The notes under the pieces are model-generated. The model had not been told where the DNA came from and did no database searches. It saw nothing but the letters and a program-made list of their open reading frames with translations. The position numbers and the translations under genes are program-made. Positions 5,413 through 37,055 of a DNA stretch of 38,582 bases are shown here, piece by piece. This DNA is from Candidatus Bipolaricaulota bacterium (GTDB taxonomy: Bacteria > Bipolaricaulota > Bipolaricaulia > UBA7950 > UBA9294), in the NCBI GenBank assembly GCA_018817505.1, contig JAHITR010000185.1, forward strand, positions 1 to 38,582, given 5' to 3'. How positions within the stretch are numbered: position 1 is the stretch's first letter; the number at the start of each line of letters is the position of its first letter.

Positions 5413-5424
5413 GCGTATGTTAAA

Positions 5425-5541
5425 CCAGGCGACGTCCTACTCTCCCAGTCAGTTGCCCGACAAGTACCATCGGCGCAGGAGGGCTTAACTGCCGTGTTCG
5501 GGATGGAAACGGGTGTTTCCCCTCCGCTATATGTCACCTGG
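5425..5541 (-). rRNA. rrf: 5S ribosomal RNA
   Basis: A 117-nt gene on the minus strand. The ends CCAGGTGAC and GTCGCCTGG pair as the terminal helix. The conserved CACCCGTTTCCATCCCGAAC loop and the GTACTTG and GGGAGAGTAGG segments are all present. It lies 49 nt downstream of the 23S 3' region and shares its transcript. Confidence 0.95.
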
Positions 5542-5569
5542 AATCTCAAAGATCCTTCCAGACTCCAAG

Positions 5570-5590
5570 CAAGTGAACAGAGTGTGTACC

Positions 5591-5598
<8 letters not shown>
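5570..5598 (-). other. 3' strand of the 23S processing stem
   Basis: The 29 nt here pair along their whole length with 8539-8567 on the minus-strand transcript. The three positions that differ from Watson-Crick complementarity all become G-U pairs. This is the expected RNase III-type precursor stem around 23S rRNA. Confidence 0.75.
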
Positions 5599-8538
<2,940 letters not shown>

Positions 8539-8546
<8 letters not shown>

Positions 8547-18269: not shown

Positions 18270-18507
18270 ATCAACTCCTTTGAGCGACCGCAACAGGCTT
18301 TTCGGAATTCCATCGCCGCTTACTCGCCGCCGACCCACTTGAGGCGTCGCCAGCTGGAATCGACTGCAGTTAGCCTCGCCGGTTGCGGGACAGATGTCCA
18401 GAACCCCTCTGACAAAGGGCCAGGTCGCAAACGGCAGCAGTCCGCCTCCCCAATCGCAGCAAACGCTATTCTCATGCCGTGAATGTAAGAATCAAAGGAG
18501 GACGACA

Positions 18508-19641
18508 ATGAAGAGAGCGTTTTCTGTTGCAGGAATCACCGCACTGTCGCTCCTTGTTTTCCTGTTTGCTGGCTATGCCCAGGAGGGATCCGCAACTTCC
18601 ATTGCGGAGCTTCTCGATCAGGAGCTCGCATCAATGGAGGCGGCTTTCGGAAGCCTGGAAGTCTTCATGGCGGAGCTCATCGGCGAAGTCAAGGGAAACA
18701 TGGGAGACATCGAGGCCTTCAATGCCAAGGTGGATGATCTTCGCGACATCGTGACGGCCGTCTCCGTCGAGATCAAAACGGCTGAAGGAAAAATCGTCGG
18801 GCTACGTGAAGACGTAAATGCCCTCGGGGCAACTCAGCAGGAGCTGAAGGTACGCATCGTCGCACTTGAGGCGGGCCTGTCCGAGCTATCGAAATTCGTC
18901 GACGAACTGAATGCGCGCCTGAAGGTAACTGGCGCGGATCTCGGCATGCTTCGCGAAGAATTCGATACCCTGATCGCAGATTACGACGTGTTTAAGGAAG
19001 CCTTTGCCGCATTCCAGGTATCGGTCTATGGCGACATCGACTCGCTACGCGACAGCGTCTACGCAGATCTGGATCTGCTTAAAGCTGAAGTGTTCGGCAA
19101 TATCGACACATTGAGCACAACCGTGTATGGCGAGATTAGCGGCCTGCAAGCGGGCGTGTACGGCGATCTCGATGCATTGAGAACTGGCATGTACGCTGAC
19201 CTCGATTTGTTCAAGGCCGACGTCTATGGCCAATTGTCAGCTCTTGAGAGCGGCTTCGCAGCCGACATCTCCATGCTGTCAATGACCACCGACGATCTTG
19301 CTCTTCGAGTTCAGGCGTTGGAAAACGAAGACGTGGGAACGTTCAAGAAGAAAGTCATCGACATCGAGCGCAACATGGCCGCGTTGGCGATTCGCATCGA
19401 CAACAATCGTGCCAAGCTTGAAGGTTTCGATCATGCCATCGCGGGCCTTTCAGATGAGATGGCCGGCACCCGCGATTCCGTCATCGCAGCGAATCAAGAA
19501 ATCTTGGCTGAGTACAACACTCGCCTGATGGCTCTTGAGTCCGTCGATTTGCAATCTCAAATTGATACGCTTTACTTCATCTCAATCGTTGCCCTGCTCG
19601 CAGGAGTTGGCGCACTGATTTGGGGATTCCTCGGAAACTAA
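18508..19641 (+). CDS. Secreted coiled-coil protein with seven 11-residue repeats and C-terminal membrane anchor
   Basis: 377 residues. A signal peptide (residues 1-24, ending FAGYA) exports it; residues 28-355 are almost all predicted coiled coil, rich in Leu, Ala, Asp and Glu; residues about 357-374 (YFISIVALLAGVGALIWGFL) form a membrane helix at the C-terminus. Residues 173-249 are seven tandem 11-residue units of the form VYGDIDSLRDS / VYADLDLLKAE, a hendecad pattern that gives a right-handed or straight coiled coil. I do not know the family. The architecture (exported rod plus terminal hydrophobic anchor) is like the Thermotoga Omp-alpha spacer rod, but no SLH domain is seen. ATG 18508 follows AAAGGAGG. 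Monocistronic, with a strong terminator. Confidence 0.8.
   Translation: MKRAFSVAGITALSLLVFLFAGYAQEGSATSIAELLDQELASMEAAFGSLEVFMAELIGEVKGNMGDIEAFNAKVDDLRDIVTAVSVEIKTAEGKIVGLREDVNALGATQQELKVRIVALEAGLSELSKFVDELNARLKVTGADLGMLREEFDTLIADYDVFKEAFAAFQVSVYGDIDSLRDSVYADLDLLKAEVFGNIDTLSTTVYGEISGLQAGVYGDLDALRTGMYADLDLFKADVYGQLSALESGFAADISMLSMTTDDLALRVQALENEDVGTFKKKVIDIERNMAALAIRIDNNRAKLEGFDHAIAGLSDEMAGTRDSVIAANQEILAEYNTRLMALESVDLQSQIDTLYFISIVALLAGVGALIWGFLGN
19024..19254 (+). repeat. Seven tandem 33-bp coding repeats
   Basis: Each 33-bp unit encodes an 11-residue hendecad beginning Val/Met-Tyr/Phe-(Gly/Ala). The units differ in DNA but keep the amino-acid pattern, which indicates selection on the protein and not recent duplication. 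Confidence 0.8.
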
Positions 19642-19759: not shown

Positions 19760-20011
19760 ATGGATCAACTCGGGAGAAGGTTGAATAGCTTCCGCATCAG
19801 GAACGGGTGGAGCAAGCGGGCAATTGCCATTCAGCTCGGCGTTTCGATTCCCTCCATCATGCGATGGGAGGACGGCACGTCCGAGCCCAATGACTACAAC
19901 CGCTACAAAATTGAACAATTCCTGGAACAGCAAGCCCCGCTTCCCGACAGATCCCTGGCCCAACTAGACTTATTCCCTCAGCCGCAGCGTGGATCGAGGT
20001 CTCGCAGATGA
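19760..20011 (+). CDS. Small XRE-like helix-turn-helix protein
   Basis: 83 residues. Residues 1-58 form an XRE/Cro-type HTH: LGRRLNSFRIRNGWSKRAIA, LGVSIPSIMRWEDGTSEP and a closing helix YNRYKIEQFLEQQ. The tail from 59 is Pro/Gln-rich and ends in an Arg/Ser stretch (RGSRSRR) that could add non-specific DNA contact. ATG 19760 follows GGAGGGG. Its stop overlaps the smc ATG (ATGA), so the two are coupled. It may autoregulate the SMC operon or act as a DNA-binding partner of the complex; the sequence alone does not tell. No toxin or phage neighbour is present, so it is not an obvious antitoxin or phage repressor. Confidence 0.8.
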   Translation: MDQLGRRLNSFRIRNGWSKRAIAIQLGVSIPSIMRWEDGTSEPNDYNRYKIEQFLEQQAPLPDRSLAQLDLFPQPQRGSRSRR

Positions 20012-22545
20012 CGCGAATATCACGGGTAGAACTCAACGGCTTCAAATCTTTCCGCAAGCAAACGGTCATTCCGTTCTTCCCTGGCATGACGGCAATCGTC
20101 GGAGAAAACGGCTCGGGAAAGTCCAATCTGTTCGATGCCGTGAGCTTCGTCATGGGGCGGCGTTCATCTGAGCTTCGCGCCGACCGATTTGAACACCTCA
20201 TTTTCAACGGCGGTGATCGCTATCCCGCAGCAAAATCGGCTGAAGTCGTCTTGTATCTCGATAACGGCGAGGGCGAGTTCAATGCGTTTCTGGACTCCAA
20301 TCAACCGATCCCTGAGATCACAATTGGGCGTAAGATTACGCCCAAGTCGTCGACCTACACATTCATGGGGAAGGCCTGCTCTCGTACCGAATTGGAACAG
20401 CTTCTCGAATCCGCCAAGATCGACTCCAACGGGCAACAGCTCATCGCCCAAGGTCGCATTACCGAGATCGTTCGTCGAACACCCAAACGCCGCCGCGAAA
20501 TCATTGACGAAATCAGTGGCATCGCTGCCTATGATGAGAAGCGAGACAAAGCCATTTCAGAACTAAAGGATGTCAAGTCCAAGCTCAACACCCACCGAGT
20601 CATTCTCGCTGAGCGTAGAAGACGCTTGGTCGCATTGCAGACCGAGCGTGACGCGGCCATCGAATACCAAAAACTGACCGAGGAGCAGGTACAGATCCGG
20701 GACTCCATCGTTCACAAGCAGCGAGAGAAGACCGAGGCTAAGCTCAAGCAAGCCCAGGAAGAGCGCAAGGGCATGGACGAGCGAATTGCTGAATTGGAGA
20801 CAGAGGTCGCACGCCTTGATCTGGCAGTCGAGAACAAGGAGTGGGAATTGGAAGGGATGCAAGAGAATCTCTCCGGAGACCACCAGATTTCCTTGGTCAA
20901 GGAAGTCGAGCGCATTCGATCCGACATCCTGCACAAGCGTGGCGAAGTCAACTTCAAGCGGCAGCAGATCAAGAATCTGGAAGAGATGATCGAAGAGATC
21001 ACTCGCATGAAAGCACAGGAGATGACGCAAACGGCCACCGCTGGCGGGCAACGCGTCAATCCTGCTGTTCAGGCGTTACTTGAGCGCAAACGAGGCGGCG
21101 TGTATGGGACTGTTGCCTCCTTATCTACGCCGAAACCCGGCTTCGAAGTAGCGTTTGAAACTGCCGCTGGGGGAAGTTTTAGTGATCTGGTGGTCGACAC
21201 ACGAGAAACGGCGATCGAGTCCATCAACTATCTGAAGGAGAAACGCCTCGGAAGGGCACGGCTTCTTCCTTTGCGCAGGTTGGTCACCATGCGCAAGAGC
21301 TTGGCTTCTGCCGAGGCACTCAAGCTCCCTGGCGTCATTGACTATGTCATCAATCTCGTTGACTTCGATGACAAGTACCGCCGCGCATTTGAATACGTGC
21401 TCAGCGATACCATCGTTGCCGACAATCTTGAGGCGCTAAAGGGTGTCGATGGCGTGCGTGCTGTCACCCTCGACGGCGATATTCAAAGCAAGGGCGGCGC
21501 AGTCTCTGGTGGATATCGTCCCTCTGCGGGCAAGACCCCGAATGAACCTGCCAAAACCAAAGATACTGGATTCGACGTTACCCAGCGGAGACAGCAGATC
21601 TCCCGACTCCGCAAGGAGATCGACGACCTCGATGACCAGATCGCTGAGTTCGTCACGCGCTTGGAAACCGAAGAGAAACAGCTGTCTGAGCAGCAGGAAT
21701 CTAAGGTCCGTGTTAAGGGCGAAGCGCTGACACGCAGCGGCGAATTGCATGCATTGCGGGAGAGTCGCCGGGAAGCTTATCAGGGACTAGAGAATCTGCG
21801 GCGCGCGCTCACGAGATACGAGCGGCAGGAAGCCGAGGCCCAAGCCGAGCTGGATGTGATTCAACCTGAGGCAAAGCGCGATCCTTCCGAGTTCATCGAC
21901 GCGACCCTATCTGAGCTAGAGCGCAGGCTCAAGCAAAACGAGCACAAGCTTCGTCGATTGGAGCCCATCAACATGCGCGCAATCGACGAATACGATGCCT
22001 ATGAGCAAGAATTCAAGCTATTCCGCGAGCGCGTCGATGCCTTGGAGAGAGAGAAGGTGGATATCGAACGCTTAATTGGGGAAATTGAGGATCGCAAGCG
22101 TCAGCGGTTCACAGAAACCCTGGTGGCCATCGATGTGGAATTTCGTCGCATCTTCCAGAAGTTGTTCGAAGGCGGAAGTGCTTCGTTGGAACTCGAAGTT
22201 GCCGGCGATATCTCTTCCGGGTTGCTGATTCGGGCGAATCCCCCAGACAAAGAGCCGCATATCATTGACTCTTTATCAGGAGGAGAGCAAACGCTAGTGG
22301 CAACTGCGTTTATTTTCGCATTGCAGGAATACCAGAAGGCCCCGTTCTTCATCTTGGACGAGGTCGATGCGGCATTGGACATGATGAACACGACGCGACT
22401 ATCGAGGATGCTCAGTGACTATGCCAAGCGAATTCAGGTGATCGTTGTCTCGCACAATGAGGAAACTGTTCGTCACGCGGAGCGAGCGTATGGAGTGACA
22501 ATGAAGAATGGTGTGTCAGAGATTCTGGCACTGGATCTTACGTAA
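20008..22545 (+). CDS. smc: Chromosome segregation protein SMC, short-armed
   Basis: ATPase core of the bacterial condensin that loads onto DNA and organises the chromosome. Head: Walker A GENGSGKSN (32-40), then ABC signature LSGGEQ (756-761) and Walker B FFILDEVDAALD with Asp784/Glu785. The hinge spans about 362-503 (GGVYGTVASL to KGGAVSGGY). All catalytic parts are intact, but the protein has 845 residues where bacterial SMCs usually have 1150-1200: both coiled-coil arms are about 165-190 residues, roughly half the usual 330-340. Both arms are short to a similar degree, so this is not a frameshift or deletion on one side. ATG 20008 overlaps the HTH gene; scpA follows after 15 nt, then scpB, giving a full SMC-ScpAB operon. 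Confidence 0.96.
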   Translation: MTRISRVELNGFKSFRKQTVIPFFPGMTAIVGENGSGKSNLFDAVSFVMGRRSSELRADRFEHLIFNGGDRYPAAKSAEVVLYLDNGEGEFNAFLDSNQPIPEITIGRKITPKSSTYTFMGKACSRTELEQLLESAKIDSNGQQLIAQGRITEIVRRTPKRRREIIDEISGIAAYDEKRDKAISELKDVKSKLNTHRVILAERRRRLVALQTERDAAIEYQKLTEEQVQIRDSIVHKQREKTEAKLKQAQEERKGMDERIAELETEVARLDLAVENKEWELEGMQENLSGDHQISLVKEVERIRSDILHKRGEVNFKRQQIKNLEEMIEEITRMKAQEMTQTATAGGQRVNPAVQALLERKRGGVYGTVASLSTPKPGFEVAFETAAGGSFSDLVVDTRETAIESINYLKEKRLGRARLLPLRRLVTMRKSLASAEALKLPGVIDYVINLVDFDDKYRRAFEYVLSDTIVADNLEALKGVDGVRAVTLDGDIQSKGGAVSGGYRPSAGKTPNEPAKTKDTGFDVTQRRQQISRLRKEIDDLDDQIAEFVTRLETEEKQLSEQQESKVRVKGEALTRSGELHALRESRREAYQGLENLRRALTRYERQEAEAQAELDVIQPEAKRDPSEFIDATLSELERRLKQNEHKLRRLEPINMRAIDEYDAYEQEFKLFRERVDALEREKVDIERLIGEIEDRKRQRFTETLVAIDVEFRRIFQKLFEGGSASLELEVAGDISSGLLIRANPPDKEPHIIDSLSGGEQTLVATAFIFALQEYQKAPFFILDEVDAALDMMNTTRLSRMLSDYAKRIQVIVVSHNEETVRHAERAYGVTMKNGVSEILALDLT

Positions 22546-22560: not shown

Positions 22561-23283
22561 TTGGAGATGGTTCGAGTCGCCGACATTCCTATTGAGGAAT
22601 TGATTGGCGAAACCTGGGAAGGCGTACTGACGCGACTCACGTCCGACATGGATCCGTGGAATATCGATCTGTCGGAATTGGCTCGCCGTTATCGCGCCTA
22701 TCTGCAAGCTCTCAAAGAAAACGACTTCGAGATCTCAGGACGCATGGTTCTGACGTGTTCCGTTCTTCTCCGTATGAAATCGGATGAGCTGTTGGCAATG
22801 GAATATCGCACGGATCGCGATGGCTTGGTTTCTGAGATCGAAGATGCGATTGAGCAAGAAGAGCTGCTTTGGGAAGAGCCGCCGAATCCCGACGATTTCT
22901 CCCTGCCCGTTCTCAGGCGTCCGCATCGACAAGTCACGCTCGGCGATCTTCGCACGGCTCTCACATCCGCGCTGAAGGTCAGCCGACGTAGAGCCGAAAG
23001 GCTGATTGATCATGTCGAAATGGAGGATTTCGATCCATTCGCCGGCTTCGAAATTGGTGGGCTCGACATTTCTGATCGTCTTCAATCGTTGCTTACAAGG
23101 ATCAAGAATTTTCTTTCCGGCAGACGCGTTCTCAGCTTCTTCAGACTCCTGGAAAAGGGAGACAAAGAGGAGCGAGTTCAGAGATTCTTCGAAATCCTGC
23201 ATCTGGCAGCCAGCGGCGATATTGAGTGCAGTCAGAGTGAATTCCTCGGGGATATTCTCATCAAACTAGAAGCTGTCGACTAG
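22561..23283 (+). CDS. scpA: Segregation and condensation protein A (kleisin)
   Basis: 240-residue kleisin subunit bridging the two SMC heads and binding ScpB. The N-terminal SMC-neck-binding part has the family segment DPWNIDLSELARRYRAYLQAL (split here by position: about 32-52), followed by ISGRMVLTCSVLLRMKS as in ScpA. The middle EDAIEQEELLWEEPPNP is acidic and flexible. The C-terminal winged helix (about 185-240) has FLSGRRVLSFFRLLE and ends in EFLGDILIKLE. TTG 22561 lies 8-9 nt after AAGGAGC; an ATG at 22567 is the alternative. Spacing of 15 nt from smc and 9 nt to scpB supports one operon. Length is normal for ScpA. Confidence 0.93.
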   Translation: MEMVRVADIPIEELIGETWEGVLTRLTSDMDPWNIDLSELARRYRAYLQALKENDFEISGRMVLTCSVLLRMKSDELLAMEYRTDRDGLVSEIEDAIEQEELLWEEPPNPDDFSLPVLRRPHRQVTLGDLRTALTSALKVSRRRAERLIDHVEMEDFDPFAGFEIGGLDISDRLQSLLTRIKNFLSGRRVLSFFRLLEKGDKEERVQRFFEILHLAASGDIECSQSEFLGDILIKLEAVD

Positions 23284-23292
23284 GGTCTGCCA

Positions 23293-24084
23293 TTGAATTC
23301 GAATGACATGACAACACACGGCCACCATCCGCGAAACGACCTCGCCCTTGCTGAAGCAGCCTTGTTTCTTGCACCACAGCCGCTCACTCGCCGTGGACTC
23401 GCCAAAATCCTCGGAGGGGTCGCACAGGCCTATGTCGATCAATTGCTGGAGGATCTCAAAGAGCGGTTCGAAGATCCAAGCCGCGGCATCGAACTTCATA
23501 TAGAAGACGGGCGCGCCCAGTTTCGAGTCAAATCCGCCTACGTCAATGAGGTGGCGCATCTCGCGCCACAGCATGACATTCCAAGACAAGAGCTGCGCAC
23601 ATTGGCGGTCATTGCCTACAACCATCCCATGACGCAAGCCAACTTGATCAAGATCCGTGGCAACAAAGGATACAAGCACGTGCAAGAGCTTCTCGAACGC
23701 AATTTGATCACCTCCGAGCCTCACGGGAGAACTACGCTACTTCATGTGACCAGGGATTTCCTTCGTCATTTTGGGCTCAACAGCGTCGATGAATTCCGGT
23801 TCCACTTTCCCACAGCAGCTGAGGAGAATGCCGAAGCATTGGCTCGCGGAATCCAAATGGATGATGATGACGAAGACGGCGCTGTTGCCCATGGAGAAAG
23901 CGAGCGGCTAGACATAGCGACAGATACGATGTCGACCGACGACGACTCCGACACGTCTGCCCATGAGCTAGCGAACCCTGTTCACCGTGAGAACTCGGAT
24001 CATTCGTTGACCCCATCCGAGTCAGAGAATGACACGGACGATGAACCCTACATAAAGCCATCAGAGGAGGTAGAACATGGATAA
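23293..24084 (+). CDS. scpB: Segregation and condensation protein B with long acidic tail
   Basis: 263 residues. Two winged helices form the ScpB core: [21 protein letters not shown] and the second, recognised by [39 protein letters not shown] and [12 protein letters not shown] (to about 165). ScpB dimers bind ScpA. From about 172 to the end the protein is an Asp/Glu/Ser-rich low-complexity tail (MDDDDEDGA and similar), about 90 residues, probably disordered. Acidic ScpB tails occur in several phyla, so this is not exceptional. Start: TTG 23293 with AGGG upstream, or ATG 23308; neither has a strong ribosome site. Its 3' end overlaps the rubredoxin gene by 8 bp. Confidence 0.92.

Positions 24085-36701: not shown

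Positions 36702-37055
<354 letters not shown>

Follow-up and report, generated by a model that had tools for sequence, protein, structure and literature searches.

A short-armed Smc encoded with ScpA and ScpB in Bipolaricaulota

Among the described systems closest to the one reported here, Smc-ScpAB of the Bacillus subtilis type carries an arm of 344 residues. In Burmann et al. 2017 (PMC5344682), natural prokaryotic SMC arms are reported to cluster at 238, 341 and 515 residues and possibly, as minor modes, at 163 and 423, and engineered B. subtilis Mini-Smc constructs are reported as functional only down to 253 residues. In simulations, step size is linked to how far the heads lie from the hinge (PMC9122525, PMC13102395); one of these studies takes this distance as the main determinant and, SMC size being conserved, expects similar steps everywhere (PMC13102395). 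A short-armed Smc is a natural test of whether arm length sets the DNA movement per step. The SMC of Mesomycoplasma hyorhinis is also shorter than usual (CDS of 2940 nt, 979 aa), but in total length, the dimension compared in place of the arms, it exceeds the protein described below by ~135 residues. A search for literature on Bipolaricaulota together with condensin found no paper.

The window (the whole stretch of DNA that was analysed, 38,582 nt long) belongs to a draft Bipolaricaulota genome of 241 contigs that is 92% complete. It contains genes in the order smc-scpA-scpB, with the following features:

20008-22545, + strand: smc, short-armed Smc ATPase, 845 aa (open reading frame; Pfam SMC_N and SMC_hinge; NCBIfam)
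20008-20508, + strand: N-terminal half of the head, residues 1-167, with Walker A GENGSGKS at 32-39 (Pfam and PDB alignments; anchors)
20524-21009, + strand: predicted N-terminal arm helix, residues 173-334 (AlphaFold2, most of it at high local confidence; anchor distance 194)
21088-21513, + strand: hinge, residues 361-502, with GGAVSGG at 496 (Pfam SMC_hinge; anchor span 132)
21577-21966, + strand: C-terminal arm, residues 524-653, predicted to be interrupted by a non-helical stretch near 617-634 (AlphaFold2; heptad periodicity; anchor distance 161)
21967-21996, + strand: joint motif INMRAIDEYD, residues 654-663 (aligns with Bacillus-type TVNIGAIEEYER and PDB SMC sequences)
22105-22542, + strand: C-terminal half of the head, residues ~700-845 (PDB alignments to 5xei and 3zgx; sequence)
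22561-23283, + strand: scpA (kleisin), 240 aa (Pfam SMC_ScpA PF02616, 1.6e-10; Rad21_Rec8, 1.8e-5)
23293-24084, + strand: scpB (KITE subunit), 263 aa (Pfam SMC_ScpB PF04079, 2.2e-35; TIGR00281 above its cut-off)

The smc reading frame opens with ATG and runs for 845 codons without an internal stop, and its product is matched by SMC_N over residues 4-837 (1.7e-63) and by SMC_hinge (PF06470) over residues 364-476 (2.1e-27). The order of parts is normal: Walker A, the motif EISGIAAYD that ends the N-terminal head half at residue 168, hinge, hinge glycines, joint, signature (LSGGEQ, 756-761) and Walker B (FFILDE, 780-785). As in other Smc-ScpAB systems, an ABC head carrying Walker A, signature and Walker B is split between the two ends of the protein, a hinge domain lies between the arms, and a kleisin and a KITE partner are encoded by adjacent genes. 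The first-pass annotation had described 845 residues with complete heads and hinge, and the Pfam matches, the motifs and the normal size of heads and hinge bear this out. At an E-value threshold of 0.001, Pfam gave no MukB or MksB family match, and the neighbours are ScpA and ScpB. Scores against both NCBIfam models fell below the curated cut-offs (TIGR02169, 1e-186, 622.9 bits against 729.4; TIGR02168, 2.4e-152, 509.1 bits against 567.35), as expected because ~330 residues are missing; these cut-offs are operational, belong to models of 1165 and 1181 positions, respectively, and are not a defining feature of the family. The archaeal-type model (TIGR02169) outscored the bacterial one, and the best PDB sequence match was the Pyrococcus structure 5xei, a likeness that covers both hinge and heads. 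Head motifs, joint, hinge, scpA and scpB are likewise shared with the B. subtilis type.

Arm segments, measured as distances between fixed anchors, set the protein apart. In the window Smc these distances were 194 residues for the N-terminal arm, 132 for the hinge and 161 for the C-terminal arm, compared with 355-361, 133-138 and 331-332 in full-length Smc of Bacillota. Three full-length Smc from our domain-wide sample gave 348-360 (N) and 313-333 (C), and the controls overall spanned 348-361 (N) and 313-334 (C). Each arm of the window Smc is therefore ~160-170 residues shorter than in the controls, with heads and hinge of normal size. Scaling the anchor distances so that a Bacillaceae Smc (L113) has the 344 residues published for B. 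subtilis yields an arm of ~178 residues (~26 nm), in agreement with the 165-190 residues first estimated. An arm of ~340 residues, which is typical but not defining of Smc-ScpAB, is not reached by the window Smc.

Both strands of an antiparallel arm appear to be present at matched length, judging from the protein sequence and the structural model. Predicted with AlphaFold2 from 6 sequences, the structure was poor overall (pLDDT 61.7, pTM 0.32), with arm helices at residues 173-334 and 524-719 that were mostly well predicted (~80-92, dipping near 285 and 625) and whose length matches expectation; the C-side helix is broken near 617-634. The hinge and some of the head regions were predicted with low confidence, and their identity comes from sequence. 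A search of viral contigs for further sequences to add to the prediction returned just one weak match. A hydrophobic periodicity of ~3.5 residues was strong in the C-terminal arm, where 0/1000 and 4/1000 shuffles equalled it, and weak in the N-terminal arm, where 34/1000 did. Profile alignments (TIGR02169, residues 4-331 to model positions 2-328; TIGR02168, residues 525-844 to 850-1181) suggest that the retained part of the arm resembles the head-proximal half; since coiled coils align ambiguously, we make no claim about the location of the missing part.

Short arms could in principle stem from a collapsed repeat, a frameshift or a contig error, and the window does come from a fragmented draft. 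We give this explanation a negligible probability. Sequence searches recovered the homologous Smc from most of 60 relatives, and equal length recurs in dozens of genomes assembled independently of one another, at identities as low as 43%, two single-contig genomes (G036 and G038) among them. Because relatives that include single-contig genomes share the length, the assembly error named at the outset as a possible refutation is refuted in turn. Across the 54 measurable Bipolaricaulota Smc, anchor distances were 182-195 (N) and 146-163 (C), or 165-179 residues on the scale of Burmann et al. N- and C-terminal lengths co-vary (r = 0.93 for 54 related sequences that are not independent, kinship being uncorrected), which supports the original view that the arms were shortened in register. 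Short arms are fixed across every measured Smc-bearing family of the phylum (four families).

A second, full-length SMC in the same genome had been proposed as another observation that would undo this reading, but in the source genome, a draft of 92% completeness, a single SMC hinge and no other Smc were found; its remaining SMC_N matches are weak, as other ABC ATPases would give. Where relatives have intact contigs, scpB lies close downstream of smc. The gene upstream of smc (18394-19641, + strand) encodes a coiled-coil protein of 415 aa that has hydrophobic stretches close to both ends and contains repeated segments of the VYGDID/LDxL type; its Pfam matches are all below cut-off, and it is possibly a cell-envelope spacer protein.

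Within the phylum, an SMC hinge was detected in 71 of 100 genomes, all of them in families f1, f2, f4 and f6, in which 71/81 genomes had the hinge and 74/81 had ScpB. Families f3, f5, f7, f8 and f9 had neither (0/19 genomes for each), and SMC_N searches of these 19 genomes and of one further genome (G045) returned matches with ORF lengths consistent with RecF-like and Rad50-like proteins. The Rad50-like proteins were considered as divergent Smc and rejected, as four of the long ones, from f3, f5 and f7 (L096-L099), are Rad50 with CPTC or CPVC zinc hooks. Smc-ScpAB, searched for as SMC_N, hinge and ScpB, was likely lost in the five families, several of whose genomes are incomplete.

Rad50 also joins an ABC head to a coiled-coil arm, its total length is close to that of the window Smc, and Rad50 models match the latter weakly, which might indicate a protein diverted to a repair role like that of Rad50 or RecN. 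This is very improbable: the window Smc has an SMC hinge where Rad50 has its CxxC zinc hook, its single cysteine means that there is no such hook at the arm tip, scpA and scpB are adjacent, and the true Rad50 proteins read in the Smc-less families are distinct.

One single-contig record (G014, contig C1) has smc matches at two distant places (L038, L043 and L065), one covering residues 1-663 and containing an in-frame TAG, the other covering residues 489-844. This split smc is likely an assembly or sequencing problem of the record.

Beyond the phylum, we sampled 160 bacterial genomes, in most cases a single one for each family, which yielded 109 hinge-bearing ORFs with a median of 1202 aa, none of them as short as the Bipolaricaulota Smc. 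Two ORFs below 1000 aa (G365 and G364) were set aside as cut by contig ends, and the shortest apparently complete ones measured 1044-1112 aa. A search of 250 Bacillota genomes gave ~150 matches listed, nearly all of ~1180-1300 aa; three short ORFs (G333, G220 and G273) stop at a contig end or near one, and a fourth (G258) has 877 aa, with its hinge at contig position 646. Among the matches listed for relatives of a Micrarchaeota genome (G100), most were 1040-1210 aa and many ORFs were below 1000 aa; of twelve such short ORFs, most reach or nearly reach the end of their contig, and four are split, an adjacent ORF encoding their second head half. Plasmids yielded nothing beyond partial or unrelated SMC and chromosomes that were mislabelled. 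Among the sampled genomes and the matches listed, arms this short appeared in no other lineage.

The protein had been introduced as a natural short-armed condensin, and a natural Smc-ScpAB shortened in register is what we find. It is not unprecedented, given the possible 163-residue mode published in PMC5344682; that mode and the Mini-Smc constructs described there have arms of a similar order, and the constructs too were shortened in register. What is new is the lineage, the fixation of the trait across the phylum, and the absence of a detectable ParB from those families that are closest to the window.

ParB, as defined by TIGR00180 and PF02195, had no match in families f1, f2 and f6, though a diverged ParB could be missed by these models; matches were scattered in f3, f4 and f7, and PF02195 matched most of the domain-wide bacterial sample. 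This differs from the B. subtilis type and might be taken to mean that the complex is mainly a DNA clamp or tether, acting by entrapment and not as a processive extruder. Short arms would be enough for a ring, entrapment requires just a barrier, and the loading site that serves arm alignment in model bacteria may be missing. We regard this as improbable, as the ATPase motifs are all intact and Thermotoga maritima, a member of our control set in which an SMC hinge was found, likewise had no detected ParB. ParB absence alone therefore says little.

Our preferred reading, to which we assign a probability of roughly two in three, is that this is an ordinary housekeeping Smc-ScpAB condensin with a shorter reach, for which ~100-bp steps and ParB-free loading are inferred. 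The function is assigned because the parts list is that of Smc-ScpAB. The sole Smc of the bacterium would act with ScpA and ScpB as condensin, and since ~170 residues are missing from each antiparallel strand, its rod would measure ~25 nm and not ~50 nm. ATP-driven head engagement and capture of a DNA segment would proceed by analogy with other Smc complexes, and the captured segment, and with it the step, would be ~100 bp, in proportion to the ~200 bp simulated for full-length Smc. Loading would presumably be independent of ParB-parS, because no ParB was detected in f1, f2 and f6.

Smaller DNA steps are a prediction. The first-pass annotation held that the protein bears directly on models of step size; its relevance to these models is fair (PMC13102395), while loop extrusion and a changed step are predictions. 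In one simulation of a full-length complex, captured loops of ~138 bp gave no translocation (PMC13102395); a motor with short arms might therefore be inefficient or operate in another way. The rescue lengths reported for B. subtilis in PMC5344682 (down to 253 residues) do not include ~178, which counts against easy transfer.

The motor might also be normal with arm length not setting the step, with DNA movement taking place close to the heads and kleisin or through scrunching, and the shortening being tolerated with little effect on the step. Simulated steps were alike with or without DNA reaching the hinge (225 vs 207 bp; PMC13102395), and the heads, joint, ScpA and ScpB, on which such models rely, are all kept. 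We nevertheless consider this unlikely, since the narrow range of arms across the phylum (165-179) argues for a length constraint and the same study ascribes step size mainly to the head-hinge distance.

The protein is real, conserved and well placed for tests of step-size models, and is a variant of a known machine. It is evolutionarily stable, occurs in many species, and combines about half the usual head-hinge distance with otherwise conventional parts, so that comparison by expression is possible without engineering. The broader proposition, that a whole phylum uses half-length Smc-ScpAB with ParB-free loading and extrusion steps of about half size, and that arm and step co-vary in nature, is tentative and, in our view, less likely than not. 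The phylum also adds an independent example from nature to the periodicity proposed for SMC arm lengths (344 - 2x91 = 162, near 165-179); the fit argues weakly for such a period, because a single evolutionary event probably underlies it and because the windows of functional length in B. subtilis are broad compared with the period.

Elsewhere on the contig, a tmRNA lies at 36702-37055 (+ strand). Its ARAGORN-predicted tag, AGKNNNCEQLRICYAVPKLGIAAR, looks atypical, and a neighbouring frame reads ...TANNYAFATPSLN, making the tag frame ambiguous. At 5424-8546 (- strand) are 23S and 5S rRNA genes with no adjoining 16S, and no 16S rRNA gene was found on the whole 38.6-kb contig; the rRNA genes may be unlinked in the source genome.
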